This document shows, one piece after another, positions 2,351-31,621 of a DNA stretch of 64,000 bases. The translations under genes and the position numbers were made by a program. How positions within the stretch are numbered: the stretch's first letter is position 1; every line of letters begins with the position of its first letter. The notes beneath the pieces were generated by a model. It did no database searches. It was not told where the DNA came from and saw nothing but the letters and a program-made list of their open reading frames with translations. The stretch is from Acetivibrio saccincola (GTDB lineage Bacteria > Bacillota > Clostridia > Acetivibrionales > Acetivibrionaceae), in NCBI RefSeq assembly GCF_002844395.1, contig NZ_CP025197.1, forward strand, positions 620,001-684,000, read 5' to 3'.

Positions 2351-2410
2351 TTGGTTGTTTCATTACACACGAGTTTGTTTACAATTACAAAGTTTGCTTA
2401 TGGCAAGCGC

Positions 2411-2449
2411 CAACCGTCAGGGGGGAGAATTCCCTTTGGCGGTTTTTTT
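2411..2449 (+). terminator. Rho-independent terminator after rpsI
   Basis: A stem of AACCGTCAGGG paired with CCCTTTGGCGGTT, followed by a run of seven T. It lies about 60 bases after the rpsI stop and could end the rplM-rpsI transcript. The same hairpin, nearly identical, follows each TGTTT-type end copy at 28610-28652, 31104-31142 and (diverged) 31585-31620, so it travels with the repeat. Confidence 0.75.
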
Positions 2450-2491
2450 GTGTTCAAAAATAGATATAGAAATAAATAAAAATATGCTAAA

Positions 2492-2580
2492 CGGACGCAG
2501 TTTTCATCCCTCGTAAGCCTGTATAATTCGTATGTGTAGGTGGTTTCGATATTTCCTCCCGTAGGTTATACCCTGCGTAT
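2492..2580. repeat. Conserved 89-bp block, copy 1 (possible structured RNA or protein-binding site)
   Basis: This block differs from 31183-31271 at a single position, while the sequence just outside both copies diverges. Its ends can pair (ACGCAG with CTGCGT), as can inner segments (GTATAA at 2521 with TTATAC at about 2566). No open frame explains the conservation. It lies between the outward-facing end repeats and the inner GAGCAAACT repeats. Confidence 0.5.
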
Positions 2581-2996
2581 GAATACTCATTACCTTCCAA
2601 GAGCAAACTTTGTCATTCTTCACTGCTCACGAGCAAACTCGCTTGTCATTTTCTCATTTTTTATATCTTTTTTTATATTTTTTAAGGTAATAAAACCCGC
2701 GAGCAAACTTTGTCTCTCAAAGTAACTTATGGGCGAGAAGCATTGCAACCACTCGCTTACCAGACGAGCAAACTTTGTCACTCCGTGAGCAAACTTATTT
2801 GTAACTGAACATAGTAATAAATAAAAAATGGCACAAAAATAAGGGTAAATTTCAGAAAAAATTTTATAGTAAGCAAACGCTAATATTCAGCCGTTTAATA
2901 AGTTTTCTATATAAAATAAAGCATTATCCCTGTTGAAAATCCCAGTATACTACGTTAACATCACATCCAAGAAGTATGAAAGAAAGGAAGGTTTAT

Positions 2997-3833
2997 ATGG
3001 CCAAAAGAGATACTTCTTGGACTATGGCAAAGTATAAAAGATTCCTGTCTGAAAACCGTGGTGCAGGTCAATTAGCCTCCTATAAGCCCTGGTTATCCAT
3101 ACAAGACTTCCCGTCAAAAGGCAGGGTTTCACGTATAAAAGGCTGGAAGACAAACAGAATACATCATTTCTTTTCAGATATTCAAACCAGATGTTTTTAT
3201 ATGTTTGAATGGGATGATGAAATAGTAGATATTAGAGAACATTATCCACTTTTAGATTTAGTAGAGGTGGTAAAAGACAATAAAGACCTTAAGCAAGAGT
3301 TTTTTATTAATAAAGAGCCTCCATATATACTAACAACTACATTTCTACTAACTTTACGAAATCACAAATATATTGCAAGGACAGTAAAATCATCGAGTGA
3401 GTTAGGGAAAAAGTCGGTGCTAGAAAGACTGGAAATAGAAAGAAGATATTGGGCAGCAAAACAAATTGATTTTGGCATAATTACCCAAAAAGAAATACCT
3501 ACTAAAATGGTAAAAAACATAGAGTGGATACACTCAAGTTTGTATACCTATGAAGAAAGAGGCTTAACAGAAAATTCATTAGAGAATTATTGCAACATTC
3601 TAATTGATAAATTTAGAGATAATAAACATTCAATCAGAAAAATAACTTCTGACTTTGATAAAGAAAATAATGTATCAGATGGAACAGGCTTATTCATTTT
3701 TAAATACCTTCTAGCATCTAAACATATTTACATTGATATGAATGAATTGCGTATTCCGGATTATCCGGACGGCAGTTCCGGAAACATCCGGACATTAAAC
3801 CGGACTATCCGGACACCTTGTCATTTAATTTGA
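2997..3833 (+). pseudogene. tnsA: TnsA-like transposon endonuclease, 3' end replaced by IS21 sequence
   Basis: The first ~250 residues follow TnsA of Tn7-like elements: FEWDDEIVDIREHYPLLD, IARTVKSSSEL, then LEIERRYWAAKQIDFGIIT and NIEWIHSSLYTYEE. TnsA cuts the 5' strands during cut-and-paste transposition. Numbering from the ATG at 2997 (GGAAGG site just upstream), the residues aligned with the catalytic triad E63, D114 and K132 of Tn7 TnsA are Gln63, Thr115 and Lys131. Both metal-binding acids are therefore gone. The last ~25 codons (TCCGG-rich) are the end of an IS21 element. No tnsB, tnsC or tnsD remains nearby. The gene is probably non-functional. Confidence 0.75.
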
Positions 3834-4222: not shown

Positions 4223-4981
4223 TTAATCACTATGTTCTGCTTCTCTAATCATCTTTTCAGCCATTACCTCCCGCATAGACTTCTTTGAGTCCAGAGCAAG
4301 GATATATGCATTATGAACTATCCTGTCCATAATTGCATCTGCTATTGTAGGGTCAGGAAACAAATCATACCAATGAGTATGAGGAATCTGTCCGGAAAGA
4401 ATCGTAGAAGCTTTATTGTATCTGCTTTCTGCAACTTCAAGTATATCCCTGCTTTCTTCTAATGTGTATGATTTTAATCCTATATCATCTAAAATCAAAA
4501 GCTTTACATTTTGAAGCTGGTTCATAAACTTGCTATATATATTTTCATTTTTCGCATCTTGTATTTCAAGTAAGAGTTCCGGAATACGGTAGTATTTAAC
4601 GGTATAACCATGACGGCAAGCACTGTTACCCAATGCACATGCTAAAAATGTTTTTCCGCTTCCGGTTTTTCCTGTAATCACTATATTTAATTTCTGAATA
4701 ATGTAGGTACAGGTAGAAAGAGTTTGCAGAGTCTTTTTATCAATCTTCCGGTCCGAAGTATAGTCTATATCCTCAATGCATGCATTAATACTAAAAGATG
4801 CTTTATGTATATATCTTTTGATTCTTGAGTTTTTTCTTGACTCCCATTCTTTTTCAACCATAATACCGAGCCTCTCCTCGAAAGACAACTCTCTTAAAGC
4901 CGGATCTGAATCACTCAGTAGTTGAGCCATAACTTTAAGTTTCATATCTCTTAATTTTTCTATAGTTGGGTTAATTAACAT
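4223..4981 (-). CDS. istB: IS21 transposition helper ATPase IstB
   Basis: A 252-residue AAA+ protein with Walker A GKTGSGKTFLA and Walker B LLILDDIG, the IstB layout. IstB loads on target DNA and activates the IstA transposase. ATG 4981 is chosen because AGGAGGTGG lies directly upstream, inside the end of istA. The two genes overlap by 11 bases, typical of translational coupling in this family. All motifs appear intact. Confidence 0.92.
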   Translation of the reverse strand: MLINPTIEKLRDMKLKVMAQLLSDSDPALRELSFEERLGIMVEKEWESRKNSRIKRYIHKASFSINACIEDIDYTSDRKIDKKTLQTLSTCTYIIQKLNIVITGKTGSGKTFLACALGNSACRHGYTVKYYRIPELLLEIQDAKNENIYSKFMNQLQNVKLLILDDIGLKSYTLEESRDILEVAESRYNKASTILSGQIPHTHWYDLFPDPTIADAIMDRIVHNAYILALDSKKSMREVMAEKMIREAEHSD

Positions 4982-6509: not shown

Positions 6510-6804
6510 CGATTGGCCCCCTTTAATCATTCTGATTAAAGAGTACCTATATTTTAGTAAATCGACAAGGTGTCCGGATGTGCCGTTACGCTGTCCGGAT
6601 AATTCCGAAATGCTGTCCGCATGTTGTCGGAATCAGTGTCCGGATGTGCCCGAAATATGCAAAGGAGAAAAAATTGAATAAAAGAGATAAAAAATCTAAT
6701 CTCTTTTTAATCGCAATATTTCAAGTTTTATAAGGGGAGGATTTTATATTAAAGAATTAACTCACAATTAATTCTGGTTTTTCAATGCATTTATGATTAA
6801 ATAG

Positions 6805-6858: not shown

Positions 6859-7455
6859 ATGTTAGAATATAAGTCAACAATTAAGGCAAGATCGTATCTT
6901 TATTTAGAATTGAAAAAGGCTGCAAGCCTTTATTTACAAGGGTTTTCTATAGATGATATAAGACAAAAAGCATTAGTAGAAAATATATTTTCATTAAATT
7001 CAGAGAACAGAATTAAGGAAATTGCTTCAACCGTTTCGGAAAGACTAGAAGCCTTGGATGAAATGTTACTTGATAAATTGGTAAATGGAAATCTTGAAAC
7101 AAGCAAACAGATAGCCCTATATGCTATTTTGAAAACAGACAGGCTTTTTTTTGAGTTTATGCAGGAGGTATATAGAGAGAAATACCTTATAAGAGATTAT
7201 TTAATTACAGATAAGGATTTTGCTATTTTCTTTCAAAGAAAAGCAGAACAAAATCAAAAAGTGGCAGAGTGGAAAGATTATACCTTTTATAAATTAAAGC
7301 AGGTTTACAAAAGAATCTTAACTGAAGCCGGATTTGTAAAGAAGAATAAAAAAGATGTTGAAATAACCAGACCCTTAATGGAGCAAGAATTAATAGATCA
7401 TTTAAATGCAAAAGGTGATGGCATATACCTGCAGGCCATGTTAGGAGGGATATAA
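6859..7455 (+). CDS. brxA: BREX protein BrxA (DUF1819 family)
   Basis: A 198-residue protein, first in the six-gene cluster. The N terminus KSTIKARSYLYLELKKAASL and the central ALYAILKTDRLFFEFMQEVY match the BrxA family, a small helical DNA-binding protein needed for type I BREX. A GAGGTGAT site at about 6840 serves the start. It runs directly into brxB; the TAA is followed within a few bases by ATG. Length is normal and the frame is intact. Confidence 0.9.
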   Translation: MLEYKSTIKARSYLYLELKKAASLYLQGFSIDDIRQKALVENIFSLNSENRIKEIASTVSERLEALDEMLLDKLVNGNLETSKQIALYAILKTDRLFFEFMQEVYREKYLIRDYLITDKDFAIFFQRKAEQNQKVAEWKDYTFYKLKQVYKRILTEAGFVKKNKKDVEITRPLMEQELIDHLNAKGDGIYLQAMLGGI

Positions 7456-8037
7456 ATGAAGACCATTTATGAAAGGCTTGATGAAATTCTACCTATTATT
7501 ACAGATAAAAGATTTAGGGAGAACAAAGGATTAGGCAATGAAATAGGCTACTATATTTTTGATTATGATCCTGAGGATGAAATCATTGTTAGAGAACATA
7601 TAAAGTTCTTAAAGCAGAAAATAAATAATGATGGAATGGATTTTTCTATTAGAGAAATTGACCTTTATGAAATAATGATTGAAATATTAGCGGAAAAGGG
7701 ATATTTGAAAAAAGTCTTTGAAATGGAGAAGAAAAAAGGTACAGATGCAATCCTTAAGCCTATAAAGAATACTTTAAGACTCACCCAGAAAAATGATTTA
7801 GTTGTAGAGTATATCAGAGAAAGAGTACAGGAAAATGATATTGTTTTCTTAACAGGTGTGGGGAAAATATGGCCAATTATCCGATCTCACACTATTTTAA
7901 ATGTTCTACATTCTGTAATAGATCATGTACCTTTAATCATGTTTTATCCTGGAACTTATTCAGGACAAGATTTAAACCTATTTGATAAAATTTCTGACCA
8001 AAACTACTATAGGGCTTTTAAACTGGTGGAAAGATAA
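7456..8037 (+). CDS. brxB: BREX protein BrxB (DUF1788 family)
   Basis: A 193-residue protein. The C-terminal half, VFLTGVGKIWPIIRSHTILN followed by PLIMFYPGTYSGQDLNLF, is the conserved core of the DUF1788 family. BrxB is required for type I BREX. Its biochemical role is not settled, but it is thought to take part in the multi-protein BREX complex. It starts at 7456, immediately after brxA, with AGGAGGG upstream. Sixteen bases separate it from brxC. Confidence 0.92.
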   Translation: MKTIYERLDEILPIITDKRFRENKGLGNEIGYYIFDYDPEDEIIVREHIKFLKQKINNDGMDFSIREIDLYEIMIEILAEKGYLKKVFEMEKKKGTDAILKPIKNTLRLTQKNDLVVEYIRERVQENDIVFLTGVGKIWPIIRSHTILNVLHSVIDHVPLIMFYPGTYSGQDLNLFDKISDQNYYRAFKLVER

Positions 8038-8052
8038 GGAGGATATTTAACT

Positions 8053-11000
8053 ATGAAAATAAAGAAAATGTTTTATAGGGATATTGATAGGGATATTAAG
8101 GGAGTTATCAAGATTGGACAAGATGATGATGCCAATGTTCATCAAGAGTTAGAGGAATATGTAGTTACTAGAGAATTGGCTAGACATTTTAGTACCTTTT
8201 TTGAGGCCTACAGAGAAGCGATTAATAATTATACTGACAAAATGGGAGTCTGGATATCAGGCTTCTTTGGTTCTGGTAAATCCCATTTCTTAAAGATTTT
8301 ATCTTATCTTCTTGAGAATAAAGAGGTAAAGGGTAAACGTGCTATATCCTATTTTGACGATAAAATAGAGGATGCTTCTGTTTTAGCAGATATCAAAGCC
8401 TCAGGGGATGTAAGTGCCGATGTTATTTTATTTAACATAGATTCAAAAGCCGATTCAGATTCTAGAACTAATAAGGAATCAATAGTTAATGTATTCAATA
8501 AAGTGTTCAATGAAATGCAAGGTTTCTGCGGGTCTTTGCCATGGCTTGCAGATCTTGAAGCACAAATGGTTAAAGAAGGTTCTTATGAAGCCTTTAAGTC
8601 AAGATTTGAGGAATTATCAGGGGAATCATGGATTGAAGCAAGAGAAGATTTTTATTTTGAAGAAGATAATATAGTTCAGGCACTGGCAGATACAACTAAA
8701 ATGAGTATAGAAGCAGCCCGAAATTGGTACAATAAGGCTGAAGATAACTACTCTTTAAGTGTCGAAAAGTTCGCTAATAAAGTAAAAGAATATATTGAGT
8801 CCAAGGACAGAGAGCACCATGTCATCTTTTTGGTGGATGAGATGGGTCAATACATAGGGGATGATGTAGGCTTAATGCTTAACCTGCAGACAGTTGTTGA
8901 AGATTTAGGAACTTATTGTGGGGGTAAAGCGTGGGTTATTGTAACCTCACAGCAAGATATAGATACTGTTACGAAGGTAAGGGGTAATGACTTTTCTAAA
9001 ATCCAAGGCAGATTTAATACAAGGCTTAGTTTATCCAGTGCCAACGTGGATGAAGTAATTAAAAGGAGAATCCTTTATAAGAACGAAACCGCTAAAGAGA
9101 CCTTAAAACTTTACTATGCAGACAAGGAAGCAATTATAAAAAATCTTATCACCTTTTCCACTGATACACCGGAAATGAAAATCTTCAAAACAGCAGAAGA
9201 CTTTGTAGATGTGTATCCTTTTATACCTTATCAATTTAGATTACTGCAGTCTGTTTTTACAGCAATTAGACAGCATGGTGCTAGTGGAAAACATCTTTCA
9301 GAAGGAGAGAGGTCTCTTTTATCTGCATTTCAAGAGGCTGCTATCAAATATATGGATAAAGAAGTGGGAGCATTAGTACCATTTTCCGCATTCTACGAAA
9401 CTATAGAGACTTTCTTGGATCATAATATCAAGACAGTTTTTATTCATGCGGAAGATAACGATAGGCTTAATGATATGGATGTGGAAGTACTAAAGGTCCT
9501 ATTCTTAATAAAATGGGTAAAAGAAATGCCAAAGAACTTGGAAAACATTGCAACATTAATGGTTTCAAATATTGACGAAGACAAAATTGAATTAAAGAAA
9601 AAAATAGAAGCATCTTTGGACAGGCTTGTAAAAGAGACACTGGTTCAGAAAAATGGAAATGAGTATATCTTCTTAACTCATGAAGAACAGGATGTAAATA
9701 AAGAAATACAAAATATTTCAATTGATATCAGTGAGATAATATTGAAGATTGGTGAGGAAATATACACAGGAATTTACAGTGAAAAGAAGTTTCGCTATAA
9801 CGTTAGATACCATTTTGATTTTAACAAAATCATAGACGATAGGTATATGTCCTCCCAAAAACACGATATAGGAGTAAAAGTAATTACCCCTTATTATGAT
9901 ACTGGTGTTGAACTTACTGACCATGAATTAAGAATGATGTCAGCCAGAGAAAATAATCTAATAATTAAACTACCTCAAGATACTTCTTTCCTTGAAGAGA
10001 TGGAGAATATATTAAAGATACAGACCTACCTTACAAGGAAAGCAGGTACTATACAAACGGAAGAAATTGAAGAAATAAAGATAAGAAAATCAAGAGAAGT
10101 TGCTGAGCGAAAGGACAGAGTTGTATCCTTACTTAAGGAAGCATTGCAAGAAGCAGACTTCTATGTAAATATGCAAAAAATTGATATAAAATCAAAAAAT
10201 CCTGTTGAAAGAATAAACAGTGGGTTGAAAATACTTATTGAAAATATCTATGACAAGTTAAACTATATTACTGATTTTATTGAAAGCACCAAAGAACTTC
10301 ATGATCTATTGCTTGATGAGGATACACAGATAAATATATTTGGAGAGGAAGAAATCCCAAACAAACTAGCCATAGACGAAGTGCTCTATTATATTGAAAG
10401 AAACACTCAAAGGCATATTCCCATAACTATGAAGACCCTATTGGAACTATTTTCTAAGCCCCCTTATGGTTGGTTGCCAGATGATATTAGAGGTATTGTG
10501 ATTAGATTATTTAAAGCACAGGAAATTAAGATACAATTAGGCAGCGAATATCTTAATACTTCTGATAATAACCTAATCCAATATATGACGAAAAAAGATT
10601 ATATAGATAGATTGCTAATAAAGAAAAGGACTAAAACCCCTGAAAAGTATTTAAATAACGCCAGAATGTTAATTAGAGAAGTTTTCAATTATGCATCAGT
10701 ACCAGGCGATGAAGATGGATTAATGATTCGTTTCAAGGAGTTATCTAACTATGAATTATCAAATATAAGAGAACTGTTAGTCCGTTATGAAGAGAGAAAT
10801 TATCCCGGTAAAGATGTGTTAGAAAGAGGCAAGAGTCTTTTCGAGGACATTTTGCAGATTAGTGATGCTACAGCCTTCTTTGAAAAACTATATGAAGTAA
10901 AAGAAGAATTAATGGACTATGAGGAAGAAGTTTTTGACGTTAAAAAATTCTTTAAAAACCAAAAAGAGCAGTTTGATAAAGCCCTTAAACAACTCAATAT

Positions 11001-11607
11001 ATATGAAAAGAACAAAACCTATGTTTTAGATTCAGAAACCATAAACCTTGTTAAAGAAATAGAAACAATAGTTAAATCAGCAAAACCATATAATCAGATT
11101 TCAAAATTACCTAGTCTAATAAATGACTTTGTTAGCAGATTTGCTATCTTGTTAGAAGAAGAGTGTAAACCTGTAAGGGCTGTAATAGAAAGTGATTGGA
11201 ATAAGGTAAAAGATGAACTGGATTTGTATGATTTTAAGGATGAGTTATCAGGTAAGTTTAACAATAAATTTAGGGAACTTTTGGACAGATTAGATTCATC
11301 TCACAACTTCTATGAAGCCATCGCCATGAAGGAAGAGTCAGATAGGTTGAAAATGAGATGTTTTGAGGAAATTAAGAAAACTGCCTTGGAAAAGAGCAAA
11401 GAAAGGGATATTGAAAAACAACCAGTTACCACTGGGGAAGGCAATGGAGTTTATACACCTAAAAAAACTGTCAATATAAGTATAGCCAATATATTCCATG
11501 GTGCCAAAACCATTGAAAGTGAAGAAGATATAGAAGAACTTCTTGATTATTTAAGAAAGCAATTAAAAACGGAACTAAAGGAAAATACCATATTGAAATT
11601 AATTTAA
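8053..11607 (+). CDS. brxC: BREX ATPase BrxC
   Basis: A 1184-residue AAA-type ATPase. Walker A is GFFGSGKS (residues 70-77) and Walker B is VIFLVDEMGQYIGD (about 257-270). A long helical C-terminal region follows, with many Glu/Lys-rich segments suited to coiled coils. BrxC is the large P-loop ATPase of BREX and is needed for both methylation and phage exclusion. Length and order match type I systems. No frame break was seen across 3.5 kb, which supports a functional locus. Confidence 0.95.
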   Translation: MKIKKMFYRDIDRDIKGVIKIGQDDDANVHQELEEYVVTRELARHFSTFFEAYREAINNYTDKMGVWISGFFGSGKSHFLKILSYLLENKEVKGKRAISYFDDKIEDASVLADIKASGDVSADVILFNIDSKADSDSRTNKESIVNVFNKVFNEMQGFCGSLPWLADLEAQMVKEGSYEAFKSRFEELSGESWIEAREDFYFEEDNIVQALADTTKMSIEAARNWYNKAEDNYSLSVEKFANKVKEYIESKDREHHVIFLVDEMGQYIGDDVGLMLNLQTVVEDLGTYCGGKAWVIVTSQQDIDTVTKVRGNDFSKIQGRFNTRLSLSSANVDEVIKRRILYKNETAKETLKLYYADKEAIIKNLITFSTDTPEMKIFKTAEDFVDVYPFIPYQFRLLQSVFTAIRQHGASGKHLSEGERSLLSAFQEAAIKYMDKEVGALVPFSAFYETIETFLDHNIKTVFIHAEDNDRLNDMDVEVLKVLFLIKWVKEMPKNLENIATLMVSNIDEDKIELKKKIEASLDRLVKETLVQKNGNEYIFLTHEEQDVNKEIQNISIDISEIILKIGEEIYTGIYSEKKFRYNVRYHFDFNKIIDDRYMSSQKHDIGVKVITPYYDTGVELTDHELRMMSARENNLIIKLPQDTSFLEEMENILKIQTYLTRKAGTIQTEEIEEIKIRKSREVAERKDRVVSLLKEALQEADFYVNMQKIDIKSKNPVERINSGLKILIENIYDKLNYITDFIESTKELHDLLLDEDTQINIFGEEEIPNKLAIDEVLYYIERNTQRHIPITMKTLLELFSKPPYGWLPDDIRGIVIRLFKAQEIKIQLGSEYLNTSDNNLIQYMTKKDYIDRLLIKKRTKTPEKYLNNARMLIREVFNYASVPGDEDGLMIRFKELSNYELSNIRELLVRYEERNYPGKDVLERGKSLFEDILQISDATAFFEKLYEVKEELMDYEEEVFDVKKFFKNQKEQFDKALKQLNIYEKNKTYVLDSETINLVKEIETIVKSAKPYNQISKLPSLINDFVSRFAILLEEECKPVRAVIESDWNKVKDELDLYDFKDELSGKFNNKFRELLDRLDSSHNFYEAIAMKEESDRLKMRCFEEIKKTALEKSKERDIEKQPVTTGEGNGVYTPKKTVNISIANIFHGAKTIESEEDIEELLDYLRKQLKTELKENTILKLI

Positions 11608-11624
11608 GTTGAGGAGGGGATATA

Positions 11625-14600
11625 GTGGATAAAACAGCCATTAGAAACTTTGCGGTAAAAGCAAGGCGTAAACTAATAGAAGATATAACCCATAAGGCCT
11701 ATGAGATAGGGATAACAAAAGATAAGATCTTAGATATAGAAACCTTTGAGGGTGGTTTTAGAGTAAAGGGTAGAGAAAACGGCAAAACCTTTAAGAAATA
11801 TGAATTAAAGCAGCGTGATAAGTTGATTCAAAATATTAAATATAAGGGCTTTGAACAAGTTATAGAAGAGGTTGCCTATACATGGTTTAACCGTTTTATT
11901 GCTCTGCGTTTCATGGAAATTAACAACTATCTTCCTACTGGAGTTAGGGTACTATCCTCAATAGAAGAAGGTAAGACTGAGCCTGATATTATCCAAGAGG
12001 CTCTAAACATAGACTTAGATCTTGATCCTGAAATAGTGTATAGACTTCAAGACAGTAACGATACAGAGGATTTATATAGGTATTTGTTAGTTAAGCAATG
12101 CAATCAATTAGGCAAAATTATGCCTTCTGTGTTTGAGGAAATCGCTGACTATACGGAATTACTCCTTCCTGACAAACTTCTTGCTGAAGGCTCTGTAATC
12201 AGAGATTTAGTGGAAGAAATAGAGGAATATGATTGGAAAATAGAACTAAATGAGGAAGAACAGAAGCAGGAAGAAGAAAAGGGAGAACACGGTATAGAAA
12301 TTATTGGTTGGCTATATCAGTATTATATTTCTGAAAAGAAAGATGAAGTTTTTGCAGGCCTTAAAAAGAATAAGAAGATTACAAAGGAAAATATCCCTGC
12401 TGCTACCCAACTTTTTACACCTAAATGGATAGTAAAGTATATGGTAGAGAATTCATTAGGTAGGCTATGGCTGGAATCCCATCCAAATGAAGAATTAAAG
12501 GCTCAATGGAAATATTATTTGGAAGAAGCCGAACAAGAACCGGAAGTTCAAAAACAATTAGATGCACTCAAAGACCCCAACTTAAATCCAGAAGATATTA
12601 AGGTATTGGACCCTGCCATGGGCAGTGGCCATATATTAGTTTACGCTTTTGATGTTCTATATGAGATATACCTATCTGCAGGTTATTCAGAAAGAGAAAT
12701 ACCTACTCTTATATTAGAAAAGAACCTTTATGGTCTTGATATAGACGATCGTGCAGGCCAATTAGCCACTTTTGCACTTTTAATGAAGGCAAGAAGTAAA
12801 AATAGAAGGATTTTTAGGCACAAACCAAAGATGAACTTGTGCTCTATTCAGGAAAGTAACGATATTCCTAGAGAGGCTATCGAATATTTGGTTAATCCAA
12901 AAGAGACTGAACTAGAAAAACATATTCACAGGGGGGACGTTGAATACCTAATCGAAGTCTTCCATGACGCAAAAGAATATGGCTCAATTTTAGATGTGAA
13001 AAAAATAGATTTTGACGCTTTAGAAAAAAGGATTGAAGAGATAAGGAGTAATGTTCCAGAAGACCTTTTTGAACTGCAGTATAGAGAGATAATATTAGAA
13101 AAAATCCCACCATTGATTCAACAGGCAAAGATAATGAGTCAAAAATATGATGTGGTTGTGACTAATCCGCCGTATATGGGAAGCAGAAAAAGTATGAATA
13201 GTTCAATTAAAAAATTTACTGAAAAGAACTACCCTTATTCTAAAGCAGATTTATATGCGTGTTTTATAGAAAAGTGTCTAGAGTATGCAAAAAATAAGTT
13301 ATTTGTATCTATGATAACCCAACAATCGTTTATGTTTACTGATGATTTTAAGTATCTACGTGAAATGCTCCTAGATAATATTAATATAGTTTGCATGGCA
13401 CATTTGGGATCGGGAGTGTTTCCAGAGTTAAGTGGAGAGGTAGTACAAACGACAACATTTATAATGAGGAAGTTATTAATTAATGATTATAAAGGTTTAT
13501 TTATAAGATTAACTGATTTACCAGGGGAACAAAAGGAAGCAGATTTATTGAATTCAAATTATCATTATTCCAAGTATAAAAATTCCGATTTTAAACAGAT
13601 TGAGGGATTTCCGTTTTCGTACTGGATAAGTGATAAGATGAAAACATCTTTTATATGTAATAAAAAGTTCGAAGAGGTTGGCATACCAAGACAGGGCTTA
13701 GCAACTGGTAATAATGAAGTTTTTCTAAGGTTTTGGCATGAAATTAAGTTTTGTGATATCGGATTTGGTTTTGATTCTATAGAAAATTTTCATGAGTCAA
13801 AAAGTAAATTTGCACCATATAATAAGGGGGGGAAACAAAGAAGATGGTTCGGTAACAATGATTTTTTAATTAGGTTCGATAAACCTAATTTTGATATACT
13901 GGCAAATCAAGGCAATAAATTGCCATCTAGACAATTTTACTTTAAACAATGTATCACATGGTCCGATATATCTGGGAGAAACTTTGCAGGAAGGTATTGT
14001 GATAAAGGATTTGTTTTTGATGTCAAAGGATCTAGCGGATTTCCTAATAAAGACAATATATATTATGTTTTGGCCTTTTTAAATTCAAAGGTTGTCCCCA
14101 AATATATAGATGCATTAAATCCTACTTTGACAACACAAGTAGGTGATTTAAAACGAATTCCTATAATACAAACTGATAAAACAGTAAAAAACTTAATATC
14201 TAATACTACTATTGAGAATGTAAAAATATCAAAAACTGACTGGGATTCCTTTGAAACCTCATGGGACTTTAAAAAACATCCACTATTAACCCATAAAAAA
14301 GAGGCGGATACAATAGAGGGAGCATTTACCAACTGGTCTAATTTTGCTGAAAATCAATTTAACCAACTTAAGGCTAACGAGGAGGAACTAAATCGTATTT
14401 TCATTGAAATCTATGGACTACAAGATGAACTTACTCCTGAAGTAGCAGATGAGGATATAACCATAAGTAAAGCAGACAGAGAAAGAGATATTAAATCCTT
14501 TATCTCATATGCCGCAGGCTGCATGTTTGGACGCTACTCTTTAGATGAAGAAGGTCTAATATATGCTGGTGGAGACTTTGATGATAAGTTTAGGCTGCGT

Positions 14601-15287
14601 GATGGACAATGGGAGATTAAGACTAAAGAAGGTTGGAAAAAGTCGAGAGTAAACATAGTAGAACATAATGTTATTCCTATTGTTGATGGAGATTATTTTG
14701 AAGATGGTATTCTGGAGCGTTTTGTAGAGTTCGTAAAGGTATCTTTTGGTGAAGAAACATTGGAGGAAAATCTAGACTATATTGCTGAAACTTTAGGTAG
14801 GAAGGCCAATGAAACTTCAAGACAGGCTATTAGAAGATACTTTTTAAAAGACTTCTATAAAGACCATGTAAGAACATATAAAAAGCGACCTATTTATTGG
14901 CTCTTTGATAGTGGAAGGCAGGATGGGTTTAAAGCCCTTATTTACATGCACCGCTACGATCCTTCTACCGTTGCAAGGGTAAGGACTGATTATTTGCATA
15001 GTTTGCAGAAAAAGTATGAAGCAGAAATAAACCATCTTGATATTTTAATAGATTCGGATATCTCTCAAAGGGAAAAGGCTGCTGCAAGGAAAAAGAAAGA
15101 GACAATTTTAAAGCAGATTGAGGAATGTAGGTTATATGATGAGGCCATAGCCCATATGGCCAATCAAAGGATTGAGATTGATTTAGATGATGGCGTTAAA
15201 GTTAATTATGCTAAATTCCAAGGGGTAGAAATACCTCAAGGAAAAGGCAGAAAGCCGCTAAAAGCAGATTTATTAGCGAAGATATAA
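11625..15287 (+). CDS. pglX: BREX N6-adenine DNA methyltransferase PglX
   Basis: A 1220-residue class I methyltransferase starting at GTG 11625 with GAGGAGGGG just upstream. Motif I is [12 protein letters not shown] (about 328-340) and motif IV is NPPYMG (about 514-519), the N6-adenine type. PglX methylates host DNA at the asymmetric BREX site so that self can be told from phage. The middle region after NPPY (roughly residues 640-900) should hold target recognition and is the part most likely to vary between strains. The C terminus [19 protein letters not shown] is typical of the family. Confidence 0.95.
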
Positions 15288-15300
15288 AGTAGGTGACTAT

Positions 15301-17856
15301 ATGAATTTATTGGAAGTAAAAAAAATATTAGAAGAAATATTTAATAAAGAACCTGTGGAAGGGAAAAAGAGAAATATTGTTTTTTGGTATGATGATGAGG
15401 GAGAATTTGCTGAAGATATTGAAGAACTTAAATTGGATAATGCCAAGATTATCAAACTTGCTGATAATAATTCCTTCTATATAAAGTATCTTCTTGAAAA
15501 AGAAGATACTGAATCTAATTATCTCTTATACTCCCCTTCATCTAAACCAATGCCACGGGATAATTGGCTGTTGGATATTCTGAAATACAGTGAGGAGTTT
15601 TCGACTGACAAGGCAACTTTAATCATGAGGGATTTCAAGGTGGGGGATCCTTCATTAAGAAATGTTTTCAAGGGATATCTAAAATTCTTTGGGAATAAAG
15701 AAAGATATAGAAAGTTTGCCTCCTACCATATAGATAAATTTACTAAAGAAAAGGTAGATATAGCAGTTCTATCTGCTCTATGCAGATTACCTGTAGCAGA
15801 TTTTGAACAAGTTGTAAAAAAGGTTTTGATTGAGGAATTAGAAGGAGAAAATAAATATCTAGAGGCTATTGAGAACTTTGGTAATATAGATGCCTTTTGG
15901 GATTTAGTTGAGAAAAGATATGGATATAACTATGAGGAGAGATCATTAGAAAAATTAACGATTATGCTTCTTGTTACTCACTTATCTTATACTCTCGAAG
16001 AGGATATGCCAACTACATGGGAAGAGTATGTATCTCCTAAAAGGTCAGATGCCATAGTATTTATAAGCAACTTCATGAATCATTCCACCGATGGTAAATA
16101 CTACGATTTACTGGCAGACAGAGCCCAGGAAACATTAAATGTAAAAGGTTATTTAGATAAATGGGATATAGATAAATATATTGAATGTGATACATTGAGG
16201 GCTTTTGATGAAGCAATAATGGATAGGATAATTGGGAACTTAGTAGAAGGTGTCGGAGAATTTGATAGATACCGTAAATTAATCAATAAAAGAAGGACAA
16301 GCCATTGGTTTGAAACATATAGAAATCAATATGAAGCCTTATACTTTGCTAATGAACTCCTTGAAATGGAAAAGAGAATTGGTGGAGTTATTAAGGCTGA
16401 AACTGCCCATGATTTGATTACTGCTTATACTAAAGAATATTATTTAATGGACTATTTCTACAGGAAGTTTTATCTTCATTACGATAAAGTTACTGACAAA
16501 GATCCTTTTGAAAAACTTGCAGAGAGAATTGAAAACACCTATACCCATTGGTATCTGAATGAACTCTCAATAAAATGGTCCGCAGCGGTTCAGGAGGAAA
16601 TGTTAGAAGAATACTCTTTAGTAGGTATTAAACAACAAAGGGATTTTTACAAAGACATTGTTTCTCCATTTACAAGGAATAACGAAAGAGTATTTGTAAT
16701 TATTTCCGATGCTTTAAGATATGAAGCAGCAAGAGAACTCCTTAATCTAATTAATAAAGAGGTAAGGGGTATGGCAGAGATTGAGTTTATGCAAGGAGTC
16801 ATCCCTTCAACTACAAAATATGGTATGGCAAGTTTGCTTCCAAGAAAGGAATTGGTGGTCAATGATAAATCAGATATTATTATTGACGGTATCAGTACCC
16901 AGGGAACAGCAAATAGGGGAAAAATAATCGCCAATTATAGTGATAATACTCAGGCAATATCATTTAGTGACATGGTAGATATGCGTAGGGCAGATTACAA
17001 GGAAGCCTTTGAAGGGAAAAAACTAATTTATATATACCATGACACAATAGATGCCGTTGGGGAAGTGCCTCAGACGGAAAGAGAGGTTTTTGATGCCGTA
17101 GAAAAGGGTTTTGAAGATTTAGTATCGCTAATCAAAAACCTAATAAACCATGTAAGTGCTACAAACATAATAATTACTGCAGATCATGGTTTCATATACA
17201 GACGTTCTCAATTAACAGAAGTAGACAAGATTAGCAGATTTGATGCTGAAACCATAGATGCCGGCAGGAGATATATGCTTGCAGAAATTGATGAAGATAT
17301 TCCAGATACATTACCTATTTCTATGAAATATCTTTTTGGACAGGAGACAAAATTAAAAGCCATTGTTCCAAAAGGTATGATTAGATACAAGGTTCAAGGG
17401 GCAGGAGCCAATTATGTCCATGGTGGAGCATCTTTGCAGGAGATAATTGTTCCTGTAATAAGATTTAAGAATATCCGTAAAGATGAGTATAAAGCCACTA
17501 AGGTCGAAGTGAAGTTAACCAATATTTCAAGGAAGATTACAAATAGAATCACCTATTTGGAGTTTTTCCAAACAGAAGTGGTAGACGAAAAGAAAGTGCC
17601 ATTAAAACTAAAACTTTATTTTGTAGATAAAGAAGGTAACCGTATCTCTAATGAAAACATTATAATTGCTGATAGTAGGTCGAAAAACCCTGAAAACCGC
17701 ACTTATAGAGAGAAGTTTACATTAAGGGATATGGCTTATGACAAGAACAAGGAATATTATTTAATTTTAGAAGATGAAGATGAAACCGTAGAAAAAATAT
17801 ATGAGCGAATACCTTTTACGATAGATTTGCTATTTACAGATGACTTTGGTTTATAA
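15301..17856 (+). CDS. pglZ: BREX alkaline-phosphatase-fold protein PglZ
   Basis: An 851-residue protein with the PglZ core: VFVIISDALRYEAARELL (about 463-480), carrying the metal-binding Asp, and IIITADHGFIYRR (about 622-634), carrying the second D/H pair. Flanking helical and beta-rich domains are of normal size. PglZ is the signature gene of BREX and Pgl systems, has the alkaline phosphatase fold, and is essential for defence. It starts 13 bases after pglX. Confidence 0.95.
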   Translation: MNLLEVKKILEEIFNKEPVEGKKRNIVFWYDDEGEFAEDIEELKLDNAKIIKLADNNSFYIKYLLEKEDTESNYLLYSPSSKPMPRDNWLLDILKYSEEFSTDKATLIMRDFKVGDPSLRNVFKGYLKFFGNKERYRKFASYHIDKFTKEKVDIAVLSALCRLPVADFEQVVKKVLIEELEGENKYLEAIENFGNIDAFWDLVEKRYGYNYEERSLEKLTIMLLVTHLSYTLEEDMPTTWEEYVSPKRSDAIVFISNFMNHSTDGKYYDLLADRAQETLNVKGYLDKWDIDKYIECDTLRAFDEAIMDRIIGNLVEGVGEFDRYRKLINKRRTSHWFETYRNQYEALYFANELLEMEKRIGGVIKAETAHDLITAYTKEYYLMDYFYRKFYLHYDKVTDKDPFEKLAERIENTYTHWYLNELSIKWSAAVQEEMLEEYSLVGIKQQRDFYKDIVSPFTRNNERVFVIISDALRYEAARELLNLINKEVRGMAEIEFMQGVIPSTTKYGMASLLPRKELVVNDKSDIIIDGISTQGTANRGKIIANYSDNTQAISFSDMVDMRRADYKEAFEGKKLIYIYHDTIDAVGEVPQTEREVFDAVEKGFEDLVSLIKNLINHVSATNIIITADHGFIYRRSQLTEVDKISRFDAETIDAGRRYMLAEIDEDIPDTLPISMKYLFGQETKLKAIVPKGMIRYKVQGAGANYVHGGASLQEIIVPVIRFKNIRKDEYKATKVEVKLTNISRKITNRITYLEFFQTEVVDEKKVPLKLKLYFVDKEGNRISNENIIIADSRSKNPENRTYREKFTLRDMAYDKNKEYYLILEDEDETVEKIYERIPFTIDLLFTDDFGL

Positions 17857-17880
17857 AATTGCAAAGGTGGTGAAAAGGCA

Positions 17881-19923
17881 GTGGACAGGGACAATAGAGA
17901 TTTAAATAAAAAATTGAATCAATACTTTCCGGGCAGGGTTGTCCGTAAGGATCTAACTCAAAAAATAAAAGAAGGGGCAAATGTCCCCATATACGTCCTT
18001 GAATATTTACTTGGCATGTATTGTGCTACTGATGATGAAGATTCCATAAATGAAGGAGTTAATAGAGTAAAAGCAATACTTGCAGAAAATTATGTTAGGC
18101 CAGATGAAGCGGAAAAGATTAAATCCAAAATTCGAGAATTAGGTCAGTATACAGTCATTGATAAGTTGACCGTAAGGCTCAATGAAAAGAGAGACGTTTA
18201 TGAGGCAGAGTTTTCTAATTTAGGGTTAAAGGGCGTAGAAGTAGAAGCGAATTATGTGAAAGAATTTGAGAAACTTCTTGCTGGTGGTATATGGTGCATT
18301 CTTAAAATTCAATACTATTATGACGAAGAGTTAAGGAATGCGAACCCTTTTATTATAAATAGTTTAAAACCCATTCAAATTCCAAACTTGGATATGGATG
18401 AGATATTGAGTGGAAGAAAATATTTTACCAAGGATGAATGGATTGATATCCTTTTAAGATCCGTGGGCATGGAACCTACTCAATTAGAGGAAAAAGTTAA
18501 GTGGCACCTTCTTGCCCGAATGATTCCTCTTGTTGAGAACAACTATAATCTCTGTGAATTGGGGCCAAGAGGGACAGGTAAATCTCATATATATAAGGAA
18601 ATATCCCCAAACTCTATTCTAATATCGGGGGGACAAACTACTGTAGCCAATTTATTTTACAATATGAACACCAGGAAAATCGGATTAGTCGGCTTATGGG
18701 ATGTAGTAGCCTTTGATGAAGTGGCTGGAATTACCTTTAAAGATAAAGACGGTATTCAGATTATGAAGGATTATATGGCTTCAGGTTCGTTTGCCAGGGG
18801 AAAAGAATTGAAGAATGCTTCTGCCTCTATGGTTTTTGTTGGTAACATCAATCAATCTGTGGACGTTCTTTTAAAAACATCCCATTTATTTGAACCATTT
18901 CCAGAGGCAATGGCATACGACTCTGCTTTTTTTGATAGAATGCACTATTATATTCCAGGTTGGGAAATACCTAAATATAGGCCAGAGTTTTTTACTAATG
19001 AATATGGCTTTATTACTGACTATATTGCAGAGTTTTTTAGGGAAATGAGAAAAAGATCCTATGGCGATAGTATAGATAAATACTTTAGACTTGGCAACAA
19101 CCTAAACCAAAGAGATGTTATTGCGGTAAGGAAAACTGTATCAGGACTGATCAAATTAATTTATCCCCATGGGGAATTTAATAAAGAAGATATAGAGGAA
19201 ATCCTAAGGTATGCCTTAGTTGGAAGAAGACGAGTAAAAGAACAATTAAAGAAAATTGGTGGCATGGAGTTTTACGATGTTCATTTTTCCTACATAGATA
19301 ATGAAACCTTTGAGGAAGAATTCGTATCGGTTCCAGAACAAGGTGGCGACAAACTGATACCTGAAGGAATGGGAAAACCAGGACATATTTATACAGTTGC
19401 CCATGGTGATTCAGGGATGATCGGAGTATATAAAATAGAAACCGAGGTTGTCTCTGGGACGGGGAAGTTTGAACGGACAGGATTGGGGACTAGTAGGGAA
19501 GCAAGGGAGAATTTAAATACTGCCTTTAACTATTTTAAAGCAAACAAAAAGAATATTAGTGGAGCAATTTCTTTAAACAACAATGACTTTTTAATGCATG
19601 TTCAAGATTTGCAGGGGATTGGTATGACTTCGCAATTGACTTTAGCAGCCTTTATTGCCCTTTGTTCTGGAGCATTAAAAAAACCTGTATTAAGTCAACT
19701 GGTGGTATTGGGCTCAATGAGCATAGGGGGAACCATTAATAAGGTGGAGGAACTGGCATCTACACTTCAAGTTTGTTTTGATGCAGGAGCGAAAAAAGTA
19801 CTCCTACCTATGGCTTCTGCCGCAGACATTAACACAGTTCCGCCAGAGTTATTTTCTAAATTTCAGATATCTTTTTACCAAAGCCCTGAAGATGCAGTAT
19901 ACAAAGCATTGGGAGTTGAATAA
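17881..19923 (+). CDS. brxL: BREX protein BrxL (AAA+ with Lon-like C-terminal domain)
   Basis: A 680-residue protein starting at GTG 17881. The AAA+ core has Walker A GPRGTGKSH (about 227-235) and Walker B VVAFDEVAGI (about 274). The C terminus has the Lon-like fold segment SIGGTINKVEELASTLQVC, then DAGAKKVLLP. BrxL defines type I BREX. Homologues are studied as ring-forming DNA-binding ATPases acting in the exclusion step. I cannot see a clean Ser-Lys protease dyad, so protease activity should not be assumed. It is the last gene of the operon and a terminator follows. Confidence 0.94.
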   Translation: MDRDNRDLNKKLNQYFPGRVVRKDLTQKIKEGANVPIYVLEYLLGMYCATDDEDSINEGVNRVKAILAENYVRPDEAEKIKSKIRELGQYTVIDKLTVRLNEKRDVYEAEFSNLGLKGVEVEANYVKEFEKLLAGGIWCILKIQYYYDEELRNANPFIINSLKPIQIPNLDMDEILSGRKYFTKDEWIDILLRSVGMEPTQLEEKVKWHLLARMIPLVENNYNLCELGPRGTGKSHIYKEISPNSILISGGQTTVANLFYNMNTRKIGLVGLWDVVAFDEVAGITFKDKDGIQIMKDYMASGSFARGKELKNASASMVFVGNINQSVDVLLKTSHLFEPFPEAMAYDSAFFDRMHYYIPGWEIPKYRPEFFTNEYGFITDYIAEFFREMRKRSYGDSIDKYFRLGNNLNQRDVIAVRKTVSGLIKLIYPHGEFNKEDIEEILRYALVGRRRVKEQLKKIGGMEFYDVHFSYIDNETFEEEFVSVPEQGGDKLIPEGMGKPGHIYTVAHGDSGMIGVYKIETEVVSGTGKFERTGLGTSREARENLNTAFNYFKANKKNISGAISLNNNDFLMHVQDLQGIGMTSQLTLAAFIALCSGALKKPVLSQLVVLGSMSIGGTINKVEELASTLQVCFDAGAKKVLLPMASAADINTVPPELFSKFQISFYQSPEDAVYKALGVE

Positions 19924-22143: not shown

Positions 22144-22265
22144 AGTTAGCGTAAAGTTATTGTAGGGAATGAGACATAAAATACCATATATAATTGAAAA
22201 GAAGATGACATCCTGTTAAGATATTAATTAACCAAAAATAATAAATAGAAAGGATGACATCTTCT

Positions 22266-23705: not shown

Positions 23706-23846
23706 GGATGAGGTAATAATAAAGCAAAAATTACGGGAAAGTTTACAAGTAAGCCTATCCAATAGGAATTATACATATCTGGAAAAAAGACAAAGAAAAA
23801 GAAAAAACATAAAAAAAGAAAAAGAAAAGAAAAAAGCAAAACTTTA

Positions 23847-23930
23847 GTACCATGACCCGCGGAGCCCTACTACTTGTCAAGGCCGGGCTTTGCCCGCTTG
23901 TTTTAGCCTTGACAAAATGGAAAATGGTAC
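23847..23930. other. Nested hairpin in the 3' part of ISLre2 copy A
   Basis: GTACCAT (23847) pairs with ATGGTAC (23924), TTGTCAAGGC (23874) pairs with GCCTTGACAA (23905), and CGGGC-TTT-GCCCG forms an inner hairpin at 23884-23896. A purine-rich run (23780-23840) precedes it. The inverted copy at 44543-46612 keeps the fold. It lies between the transposase stop and the right end, a length with no gene, so it is likely a bidirectional terminator or part of the transposition end. Confidence 0.5.
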
Positions 23931-28557: not shown

Positions 28558-28652
28558 TGTTTATTTACACACGAGTTTGTTTACAATTACAAAGTTTGCT
28601 TATTGCAAGCGCCAACCGTCAGGGGGGAGAATTCCCTTTGGCGGTTTTTTTA
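28558..28652. repeat. Solitary TGTTT-type end copy plus terminator
   Basis: TGTTTATTTACACACGAG begins 8 bases after the hamB stop and continues through the same two RTTACA/AGTTTG units and the same hairpin as at 2356-2449. There is no inner GAGCAAACT cluster. The hairpin can terminate hamAB. The copy marks the boundary between the Hachiman genes and the ArsR-ABC genes. Confidence 0.75.
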
Positions 28653-28754
28653 TGTGTAAAAATTGAAAAAACTTTTGTGTAAATGGACTTTTTGACCCAA
28701 AAACTCCAAAATGTAAGATTTTATGAGATCAGGGTCAAGGGTGAAGGGGTTGAA

Positions 28755-28837: not shown

Positions 28838-29206
28838 ATGAAGATAACAAAGGTACTTAAAGCCATAGCCGATGAAACGAGATTTAAAATGCTTAAATTA
28901 CTTTTACAACATAATTATTGCGTAAGAGCATTGTCAAGAAAACTTGAGTTGTCGGAATCGGCAATATCACAGCACATAAAAGTTTTAAGGGAAGCAGGTC
29001 TGCTTATAGGAGTGAAAAAGGGTTACTACATGCATTATGATGTAGACAGAAACACCCTGCATAAACTCTCTTCTAAAATTGAAGAACTTGCTGTAATTGA
29101 ACGGAAAGTTTGTAATCCTGAAAATGTAGGGTGTGAATCTTTTGAACGGAAGATGTGTCATGTACAAAGTAGGGGTCATAAGTGTTCTAATGAAGTACAG
29201 TCCTAA
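28838..29206 (+). CDS. ArsR-family transcriptional repressor with Cys-rich tail
   Basis: A 122-residue winged-helix protein. The HTH is SESAISQHIKVLREAGLLIG and the wing is KKGYYMHYDVD. The last 35 residues hold four Cys (KVCNPENVGC, then KMCHVQSRGHKC), which could bind a metal or sense redox state. It is first in an operon with an ABC ATPase and permease and has a dyad operator at its own promoter, so it probably represses the exporter until an inducer binds. GGAGG lies upstream of the ATG. Confidence 0.88.
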   Translation: MKITKVLKAIADETRFKMLKLLLQHNYCVRALSRKLELSESAISQHIKVLREAGLLIGVKKGYYMHYDVDRNTLHKLSSKIEELAVIERKVCNPENVGCESFERKMCHVQSRGHKCSNEVQS

Positions 29207-29246
29207 TATTATGCTGAACATAGAGAGGAAGGATGTGTAGACAATC

Positions 29247-30206
29247 ATGGAAATTGTCAATGTCACAAATCTTAAAAAAGTATATGGAGAAATTCAAGCA
29301 GTTAATGGAGTTTCTTTTAATATTGAACAGGGCGAAGTTTTTGGTTTCTTAGGTCCCAATGGAGCAGGAAAAACCTCAACAATTAATATGATGATTGGGC
29401 TGTCCAGGCCTACTAGCGGCCACATAGTGATTGATGGAATTGATGCGATAAAATACATTAAAAAAGTCCAAAAAATTATAGGAATTATTCCTGATGAAAA
29501 TAATTTATATGATGAAATGGACGGCTTTGATAACCTTTGCTTTTGTGCTTCGTTATATGGGATACGTAAAGCAGAGCGTGAAAAAAGAGCAACGGAGTTG
29601 TTGGAACAATTTAATTTAACTAAAGCAGGGAAACGTCCTTTCAAAACGTATTCAAAAGGAATGAAACGAAAACTCACAATAGCCGCTGGAATTATACACG
29701 ATCCTAAAATATTATTTTTAGATGAACCTACAACAGGCATAGATATTGAAAGTGCAAGACAAATAAGGGAACTAATATTGGACCTAAAAAAACAAGATAA
29801 AACTATTTTTATTACCACACATTATATTGAAGAGGCTGAAAGAATCTGTGATAGGATTGCTTTTATTGTAGATGGTAAGATTGTAAAAAATGGTACGGTA
29901 ACTGAATTGATGGAAAGCGCAGAACGTGAACATAAAATTAGGTTGCAACTTGACAACAGCATAAAAGAGATGAAGGAGGAACTAGAAAATAATCTTGTAA
30001 ATTGCAGTATACATATTCCAGATGAAAATTCTTGCCTAATTATTTCTAAAGAACGTATTGCCTTATCTCCTATTTTACAACTACTTGACAGTAAAGGTAT
30101 TTCTGTTTACGAAGCAAAAGAAGTAAAACCATCATTAGAAGATGTATTTGTTAAAATAACGGGTATTGAGGCCTCAAAACTAAAAAATGAAAAGGTGGGG
30201 AAATAG
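29247..30206 (+). CDS. ABC exporter ATP-binding protein
   Basis: A 319-residue ATPase with Walker A GPNGAGKTS, Q-loop region IGIIPDENNLYDEMDG, signature YSKGMKRKL, Walker B ILFLDEPTTGID and H-loop ITTHYIEEAE. It is of the CcmA/DrrA type, with a C-terminal ~80-residue regulatory extension. It pairs with the membrane gene that starts right after its stop. GAGGAAGG precedes the start. The substrate is unknown; similar ArsR-controlled pairs export drugs or toxic compounds. Confidence 0.9.
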   Translation: MEIVNVTNLKKVYGEIQAVNGVSFNIEQGEVFGFLGPNGAGKTSTINMMIGLSRPTSGHIVIDGIDAIKYIKKVQKIIGIIPDENNLYDEMDGFDNLCFCASLYGIRKAEREKRATELLEQFNLTKAGKRPFKTYSKGMKRKLTIAAGIIHDPKILFLDEPTTGIDIESARQIRELILDLKKQDKTIFITTHYIEEAERICDRIAFIVDGKIVKNGTVTELMESAEREHKIRLQLDNSIKEMKEELENNLVNCSIHIPDENSCLIISKERIALSPILQLLDSKGISVYEAKEVKPSLEDVFVKITGIEASKLKNEKVGK

Positions 30207-30941
30207 ATGCAAACTTTAATTGCATTTTGGAATATCCTAAAAAAAGATATAAATAATTACTATCTAAAACCACCTAACATCAGTTGGGGAATTATATTTC
30301 CACTTTCTTGGACACTAATGCAACTTATCCGTTCACAAGGAGATATTGGAATTGCAGAGTTGCTTCCAGGCTTAATGGCAATGAGCGTGTTGTTTGGGAC
30401 TACTTCAATGCTGGCTGTCACAATCACATTTGAGAGAAGAAGTCGCTCATTTGACAGGTTGTTAGTTGCGCCGATAAGTATAAGTGCCTTAGTCATTGCT
30501 AAAATTCTAGGAGCAATCTTATTTGGAATTCTCAATGCATTTGTACCAGTTATCTTTGCAGCATTCTTTATGAATTTAATGGAAATTAACTGGGGAGTTA
30601 TACTTGTTGCAGTAATTTTAATAGCAGTTACTTCTGCTTTACTGGGGTTGCTAATTGCTGTATCTTCGAAGGAAGTATTTGAGGCCCAAACATTTTCAAA
30701 CTTTTTTAGATTTCCAATGTTATTTTTATGCGGCTTATTTATATCGATTGATAAGTTGCCAGTCATATTAAGACCAATATCATTTTGTTTACCTCTGACC
30801 TACGGAACGGATATACTTAATGGCATGATTACAGGTAATTCTATCTTTACAACTACATTTAGTGTTTTTATCATGTTAGTTTTTGTTTTATTATTATTTT
30901 ACTTGTGTTTGAGAAATATTAATAAAAAGTGGATTCATTAA
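30207..30941 (+). CDS. ABC-2-type exporter permease
   Basis: A 244-residue protein with six predicted membrane spans. The central ITFERRSRSFDRLLVAPIS is the conserved cytoplasmic loop of ABC-2 permeases such as DrrB/NodJ, and the later FFRFPMLFLCGLFISIDKLP is the conserved C-terminal span. It starts at the base after the ATPase stop, so the two are translationally coupled. It forms the membrane pore of the ArsR-controlled exporter. Confidence 0.88.
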   Translation: MQTLIAFWNILKKDINNYYLKPPNISWGIIFPLSWTLMQLIRSQGDIGIAELLPGLMAMSVLFGTTSMLAVTITFERRSRSFDRLLVAPISISALVIAKILGAILFGILNAFVPVIFAAFFMNLMEINWGVILVAVILIAVTSALLGLLIAVSSKEVFEAQTFSNFFRFPMLFLCGLFISIDKLPVILRPISFCLPLTYGTDILNGMITGNSIFTTTFSVFIMLVFVLLLFYLCLRNINKKWIH

Positions 30942-31048: not shown

Positions 31049-31523
31049 TTGTTTCATTACACACGAGTTTGTTTACAATTACAAAGTTTGCTTATCGCAA
31101 GCGCCAACCGTCAGGGGGTTCATTCCCTTTGGCGGTTTTTTGTTGTGTAAAAAGCATATAAGAATGTATAAATTATTAAATCCGGACGCAGTTTTAATCC
31201 CTCGTAAGCCTGTATAATTCGTATGTGTAGGTGGTTTCGATATTTCCTCCCGTAGGTTATACCCTGCGTATCACTGTCCTTATTTTTCCACGAGCAAACT
31301 TTGTCATTCTTCACTGCTCACGAGCAAACTCGCTTGTCATTTTCTCATTTTTTATATCTTTTTTTATATTTTCTCAGTAAAGGCAACCCGCGAGCAAACT
31401 TTGTTACTCGAAGGAAATAAACAGCGAGAAGCCTTGAAACAACTACATTTCAACACGAGCAAACTTTGTAACTACGTGAGCAAACTTTGTAACTACGTGA
31501 GCAAACTTATTTGTAACTACACA
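31049..31523. repeat. Right-end block of the proposed Tn7-like island
   Basis: It begins TGTTTCATTACACACGAG like the left block, with the same hairpin (31104-31142) and the same 89-bp block (31183-31271). GAGCAAACT units then start at 31292, 31322, 31392, 31457, 31478 and 31499. The last three are exact 21-bp tandem repeats of GAGCAAACT-N5-6-GTAACTAC type, and the block ends ACTACACA at 31523, followed by ATTGG. Closely packed 21-bp sites next to an ACA terminus are what a Tn7-family right end looks like. Confidence 0.65.
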
Positions 31524-31528
31524 ATTGG

Positions 31529-31621
31529 TGTTTCATTACACTCGAGTTTGTTTACAATTACAAAGTTTACTTATTGCAAGAGTACAACCGCCACAGGCTA
31601 TTTACCTTTGGCGGTTTTTAC
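31529..31621 (+). repeat. Fourth, diverged TGTTT-type copy with terminator
   Basis: TGTTTCATTACACTCGAG and the two RTTACA/AGTTTG units are kept, but the hairpin differs (AACCGCCACAGG with CCTTTGGCGGTTTTT). It may be the original rpsI downstream sequence or the end of an older insertion. It is followed by ordinary chromosome. Confidence 0.6.

Follow-up and report, generated by a model that had tools for sequence, protein, structure and literature searches.

Organization of the rpsI island

The window, a stretch of 64,000 nucleotides from the genome of Acetivibrio saccincola (G000), carries a gene island directly behind rpsI (Table 1). The island opens five bases after the rpsI stop codon with a non-coding module, M1, and is closed by a second module, M2, in the same orientation, and between the two lie tnsA, BREX genes, a tyrosine integrase gene and ABC transporter cargo, together with a UPF0236 gene and a gene for a DEAD-helicase with a HIRAN domain. 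Among the ORFs searched in the island, tnsA is the only Tns gene, and tnsB, tnsC and tnsD were not found there. The match of its product to the TnsA of a related genome, G044, ends at residue 258 of 285, and an imperfect 47-bp inverted repeat (77%) at 3776-3822 and 6564-6610 constitutes the ends of the adjoining IS21-like element.

Other repeated and mobile sequences occur in the same genome. The element bearing the UPF0236 gene is present in two inverted copies, one inside the island (22145-24217) and one outside it (44539-46612), which are about 97% identical over their main stretches. Also outside the island, direct repeats 13 kb apart (41994-42359 and 55038-55404) share segments of about 265 and 104 bp at 93% and 99% identity. 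A second Tn7-like element lies elsewhere in the genome (G000:C1:160678-162792; L154, L162), with a TnsB 49% identical to that of G044 and a TnsA before it.

Table 1. Features of the rpsI island, in coordinates of the window
Feature	Position	Strand	Basis
rpsI (ribosomal protein S9), insertion point just behind stop codon	1958..2350	+	Pfam Ribosomal_S9
M1, complete R-block-L module, 456 bp	2356..2811	+	aligned with homologous modules
R-type end of M1 with TGT terminus and a pair of inverted TnsB-like sites (near 2371, 2391)	2356..2405	+	motif positions
Intrinsic terminator in R end of M1, 15 pairs, T tail	2412..2444	+	terminator prediction
Variable spacer, unlike M2	2452..2491	+	module alignment
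89-bp block, copy 1	2492..2580	+	genome search, copy comparison
L-type end of M1: five GAGCAAACT sites (2601, 2631, 2701, 2766, 2787), ACA terminus	2601..2811	+	motif positions
tnsA, C-terminus replaced at join with IS21-like element	2976..3833	+	Pfam TnsA N and C domains
IS21-like element, istA/istB	4223-6530		joined to tnsA
BREX cargo: BrxA, BrxB, BrxC, methylase (PglX-like), PglZ, BrxL	6859..19923	+	domain searches
Tyrosine integrase, 287 aa	21235..22098	+	91% identical in G044
Additional R-type end preceding the ArsR-ABC cargo; has terminator, lacks block	28558..28666	+	
ArsR-type regulator, ABC transporter genes	28838..30941	+	
M2, complete R-block-L module, 474 bp	31050..31523	+ (orientation as M1)	aligned with homologous modules
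89-bp block, copy 2	31183..31271	+	genome search, copy comparison
ATTGG, outer target duplication; repeated at 2350-2354, one base off M1 terminus	31524..31528	+	
Older, degenerate R-type end with terminator, outside island	31529..31620	+	past M2 and ATTGG

An 89-bp block at the centre of a two-ended module

Each of the two modules, which begin with TGTTTC in the window, consists of an R-type end, an intrinsic terminator (at 31106-31137 in M2), a variable spacer, an 89-bp block and an L-type end, the labels R and L following Tn7 convention. The L-type end of M2 has six GAGCAAACT sites and an ACA terminus. The block, which the initial annotation had placed at the two ends of the island, does belong to the ends of a mobile island but is not at their extremes, being enclosed between an R-type and an L-type end within the repeated module. 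A search of the whole host genome (one 3.6-Mb contig, E <= 0.001) yielded these two copies only, and a 36-base piece taken from the block has an expected count of 0 in shuffled sequence even when 3 mismatches are allowed.

As the initial annotation had reported, the two copies differ at one of 89 bases (C at 2505, A in the second copy), and their immediate neighbours mismatch at once on either side. Its description of the flanks as strongly divergent holds for the adjoining spacer, where 16 of 46 columns differ between M1 and M2, but not for the outer flanks, which are homologous, with 4 of 86 columns differing for R and 40 of 231 for L. For this pair, the block is conserved above the spacer (Fisher P 6e-8) and above the L side (P 2e-5), whereas its conservation is not significantly different from that of the R side (P 0.21). 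Since the R and L flanks are homologous further out, the block represents the best-conserved part of a longer duplicated module rather than an isolated sequence.

The absence of an open frame, also claimed initially, is correct only in the sense that no conserved coding frame was seen: short ORFs of 25-64 aa do cross the block. Two frames are common to both copies inside the block, beginning at GTG codons at 2540/31231 on the plus strand and 2623/31314 on the minus strand; both run into the variable flanks, where their sequences and lengths change (61 versus 49 aa and 39 versus 64 aa), and in other modules the flanks that these frames enter show a 10-base length change.

Distribution among Clostridia-like bacteria

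The search of other genomes that had been proposed for the block gave a total of 12 genomes with a full-length copy (G000, G044, G062, G015, G014, G006, G012, G013, G011, G237, G343 and G210, all collected loci considered), while four others carry its first 55-63 bases only (G009, G008, G010 and G005); by contig coordinates, G007 duplicates G062, G136 duplicates G006 and G212 duplicates G011. In G010/L017 and G005/L010 the copy breaks off within the block and continues into other DNA. An exact 18-base scan of genome contigs returned 14 stretches, 11 of which carry the block with module context and come from Clostridiales, Clostridiaceae, Tissierellia, Peptococcaceae, Petromonas and other Bacillota or Clostridia MAGs; the remaining three (L011, L016, L023) share little past the 18-mer and were discarded as chance. 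The module recurs in several genera with an unchanged order of parts.

Within the order, 22 of 58 genomes scanned had a match to M2, the longest being full modules (G000, G044) and the shortest covering about 30 bases. At the level of the class, at least 38 of 391 genomes matched and at least 11 of 391 matched over the block, four of those only partly; these counts are lower bounds, because two candidates per genome were scored as opposed to up to eleven in the order scan, and the shortest matches may be due to chance. A weak L-like match in G010 (L087) was judged on inspection to be of that kind. No match to M1 was found in plasmids and phages at E 1e-5, and in viral contigs there was a single exact match to a 16-base piece (L138, scoring 16/89 against the whole block) and none to a 20-base piece. 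Ten loci have an R end without the block (L107, L111, L113-L115, L117-L119, L148 and L149; best score <= 13/89).

The most complete relative is G044, in which a single contig reads rpsI-M1-TnsA-(IS)-TnsB-TnsC-TnsD-cargo-integrase-M2. Its M1 and M2 are identical over 456 bp; between them are Mu-transposase C, TniB/AAA and TniQ plus TnsD domains, and its cargo includes BrxC-like, methylase, PglZ and helicase genes. Its tnsA and tnsB are separated by an IS of three ORFs (188, 444 and 270 aa, the 444-aa one bearing an rve domain), and close to the island's other side an oppositely directed set of three ORFs has matching sizes (L081:11045-13820, L079:12984-15759).

Tn7-like insertion behind rpsI

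The element shares several hallmarks of Tn7-like transposons, including a TnsA-type endonuclease gene, a 5-bp duplication, a specific site behind a conserved gene and, according to predicted sites at motif positions, repeated transposase-type sites in asymmetric TGT...ACA ends. Exact 5-bp target duplications were present in six of the nine end pairs examined (TCTTT in G044, ATTGG in G013, AAAAT in G015, TTTGC in G006, GTTGT in G011 and GCAAG in G008), where the pairing of ends is inferred for draft genomes with the two ends on separate contigs; in the window and G343 the outer 5-bp flanks match with a shift of one base, and in G237 they do not agree. The exact duplications indicate that the island moves as one rpsI-targeted Tn7-like transposon, with the outermost R of M1 and the outermost L of M2 defining the mobile unit. 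The M1 of G013 is preceded by ATTGG and followed by ATTAT, and none of the modules examined was a solitary one carrying an exact target duplication of its own.

A gene of the Pfam S9 family precedes the R end in many loci, including L017, L018, L020 and G044. Of six further genomes, four (G001, G004, G018 and G019) lack an R end within the 260 bases of rpsI flank inspected in each, and two (G017 and G024) have an R end with terminator and no block. Such persistent R ends probably now act as the terminator of the rpsI operon, keeping it properly ended after insertion. Of 24 genomes searched, only G044 and G122 (the latter with a fragment) have a TnsB about 95% or more identical to that of G044, so that most rpsI islands look non-autonomous, with the caution that the genomes are mostly drafts. 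The remaining TnsB matches are 41-53% identical to that of G044 and probably belong to other Tn7-like elements.

Inspection by eye indicates that the start of ArsR-ABC-like cargo with its own R-type end also occurs directly behind rpsI in G427 (L118), and that the right flank of ArsR-ABC cargo, followed by an R end, recurs in G103 (L131). From these two loci and window positions 28558-30941, small islands seem to stack at the rpsI site. Also by eye, related words (ATTAAATGTTCTT-like, or AATTGTTCAT) stand ahead of inner R ends despite different cargo, in the window (31036-31049), G044, L110 and L131 as well as in L019 and L129.

Conservation and mosaicism of the modules

In the nine modules that have R, block and L parts, pairwise identity averages 98.5% in the 3' half of the block, 87% in its 5' half, 81% in R, 77% in the spacer and 85% in L, making the 3' half the best conserved of the segments compared. 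The 5' half exists in two main forms, a canonical one and a second one found in G210, G237, G343 and others. The alleles of R, the spacer, the block's 5' half and L have been combined in numerous ways. For 20 modules, many of which are partial, aligned over 503 columns, the four-gamete rule requires a minimum of 22 recombination intervals, a figure that homoplasy and alignment error may inflate. Given such highly mosaic ends, hitchhiking of the block or a role in recombination has to be considered.

In the strongly diverged end of G047, 17 bases of the block (GGTTATACCCTGCGTAT) are kept, with a score reached by none of 2000 shuffles. The idea that the outer parts of the block are the inner inverted repeats of both ends, lying apart in G047 and G050, was abandoned, as only these 17 bases on the L side of G047 were significant. 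In G122, TnsC and TnsD are 98.7% and 96.7% identical to those of G044 and TnsB is about 95% identical over 99 available residues, and in its two end modules the block survives only as a diverged remnant (local match P 0.0075, one copy tested). Near-identical TnsC and TnsD alongside a diverged block would argue against strict recognition of the block by TnsB, provided that the end modules and the tns genes of G122, which are separated by contig breaks, belong together.

Possible roles of the block

The initial annotation had suggested a cis-acting role for the block, either as a binding site for a transposition protein or as a small structured RNA. Conserved DNA at the ends of a mobile island bears out the general idea, and a cis role in transposition is the best reading. 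A direct TnsB site is unlikely, as the best motif match within the block is 10/18, a score reached by 56% of shuffles. Regarding RNA, the complementary letters noted at the block termini and inner parts are present, but inverted similarity within the block is at chance (P 0.23), which also led us to reject a recombinase core formed by such an internal repeat. For each strand of each copy, the folding energy is no different from that of shuffled sequences (z 0.37, 0.56, -0.14 and 0.40). The 12 pairs initially put forward, for which covariation had been proposed as a check, never change on both sides among 12 distinct copies, and for each helix three of the copies have one or two of its six pairs broken. 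The minimum free energy structure contains one compensatory cell, a count equalled in 116 of 500 shuffles; RNAalifold gives a covariation term of -0.03; and no Rfam 15 family matches the block above its gathering score. Besides the complementary hexamers, the reading as a structured small RNA can draw on an RNAalifold hairpin, CGTAGG-TTATAC-CCTGCG, present in 12 of 12 copies with one C-G to U-G change; however, this hairpin hardly varies and therefore says little, and the block also lacks a promoter-like site. A structured RNA is thus largely refuted and highly improbable.

It is also doubtful, if less so, that the block serves as a promoter or operator for the cargo genes adjoining the module. 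A TANAAT-like word does occur in the canonical form (TATAAT), the second variant (TAGAAT), L110 (CATAAT) and G122 (TAAAAT), yet it has no -35-like partner, promoter consensus scans gave no match within either block, and the tnsA start lies about 400 bp away with the L end in between. Slightly greater weight, though it is still improbable, can be given to a docking function, whereby direct copies of the block or module would allow excision or exchange of cargo between rpsI islands through the tyrosine integrase or homologous recombination. The R-block-L modules at both ends would then form a docking/exchange unit in which recombination at the block swaps cargo and reshuffles ends and TnsABCD moves the result. 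This possibility accords with the M-cargo-M direct repeats of G000 and G044, the widely shuffled module alleles, the joining of cargo inside the block after GGTGGTTT in L010 and L017, and the integrase carried in the window and in G044 and adjoining a module in L019; tyrosine integrases inserting at the rpsI 3' end have been reported for streptococcal ICEs (PMC4701971). However, the integrase (E <= 1e-40) was detected in only 4 of 26 genomes with modules or module parts, and four of the six class genomes encoding it (E <= 1e-45) have no module match, a poor co-occurrence for which the block was dismissed as the attachment site of the island's integrase. Furthermore, the complementary half-block of the L010 and L017 junctions was not found in their genomes, and the chance-level inverted similarity inside the block likewise speaks against docking.

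A stronger competitor, though still on the unlikely side, is hitchhiking, in which the block has no function of its own and modules spread recently and recombined, one allele having been swept or gene-converted. Extreme mosaicism with its many recombination intervals, the identity of M1 and M2 in G044, and related ends that lack the block or have it replaced are all in keeping with this scenario. It is harder to reconcile with a 3' half conserved at about 98.5% while segments on either side reach only about 77-85%, or with the persistence of GGTTATACCCTGCGTAT in the much diverged G047 end.

The block is the centre of a non-coding module that forms both direct-oriented ends of Tn7-like islands behind rpsI. 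We infer, with a probability of roughly 0.45, that it acts as a double-stranded DNA cis-element of the transposon end. The recurrent module, the conserved 3' half, the target duplications, the placement of TnsABCD between identical modules in G044, the rpsI genes without such an end in G001, G004, G018 and G019, the failure of RNA structure and the lack of a promoter-like match are consistent with this reading. Counting against it are the diverged block of G122, the copies cut inside the block, the ten R-only loci without it, its position deep inside the transposon end, and its conservation in the window pair, which does not differ significantly from that of R. As a subterminal cis-element, the block might assist in the folding and pairing of both ends within the transposase complex, and it would most likely be bound by a DNA-bending protein, host or accessory, rather than by TnsB. 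In a type I-F CAST, an IHF site between TnsB sites of a Tn7-like end is reported to be needed for efficient transposition (PMC10201428); it is similarly a conserved non-TnsB segment inside such an end, but it lies between the TnsB sites of the L end and matches IHF, whereas the block lies between R and L and its binder is only putative.

Relation to known elements and implications

The element is an rpsI-targeted variant of a Tn7-like transposon with duplicated two-ended modules. It resembles Tn7 and Tn7-like (TnsABCD) elements in its TnsA in the window and TnsABCD in G044, TGT...ACA termini, repeated transposase-type sites, asymmetric ends, 5-bp duplication, conserved-gene target and defence cargo. 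It differs in using rpsI as the target and in having complete R-block-L modules in direct repeat as both ends, whereas the usual Tn7 layout has one R end and one L end. Composite transposons and MITE-like elements similarly have two copies of a short two-ended element that flank and move cargo, but the flanking units here are non-coding Tn7-type modules whose independent movement is hypothetical. The streptococcal ICEs at rpsI share the chromosomal address and a tyrosine integrase; they are reported to integrate via the integrase into the rpsI 3' end (PMC4701971), in contrast to the Tn7-type ends and 5-bp duplications seen here. Within the parts of the Tn7-like literature searched, rpsI is not named as a target, and an rpsI-targeted Tn7-like transposon with duplicated modules is not described (including in PMC10293859 and PMC8649781), which does not prove its absence from print.

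The block provides a simple marker for finding rpsI islands. In addition, the ends of Tn7-like elements are usually described as one left and one right; in this family from Clostridia-like bacteria, each flank holds a complete two-ended module, alleles are shuffled freely from island to island, and a conserved segment is present that does not correspond to a transposase site. If the block is a required accessory site, it would point to an end-pairing factor not yet known. If it is instead an exchange site, it would explain the swapping of defence cargo such as BREX at a single chromosomal address, where cargo would circulate by two routes at once.
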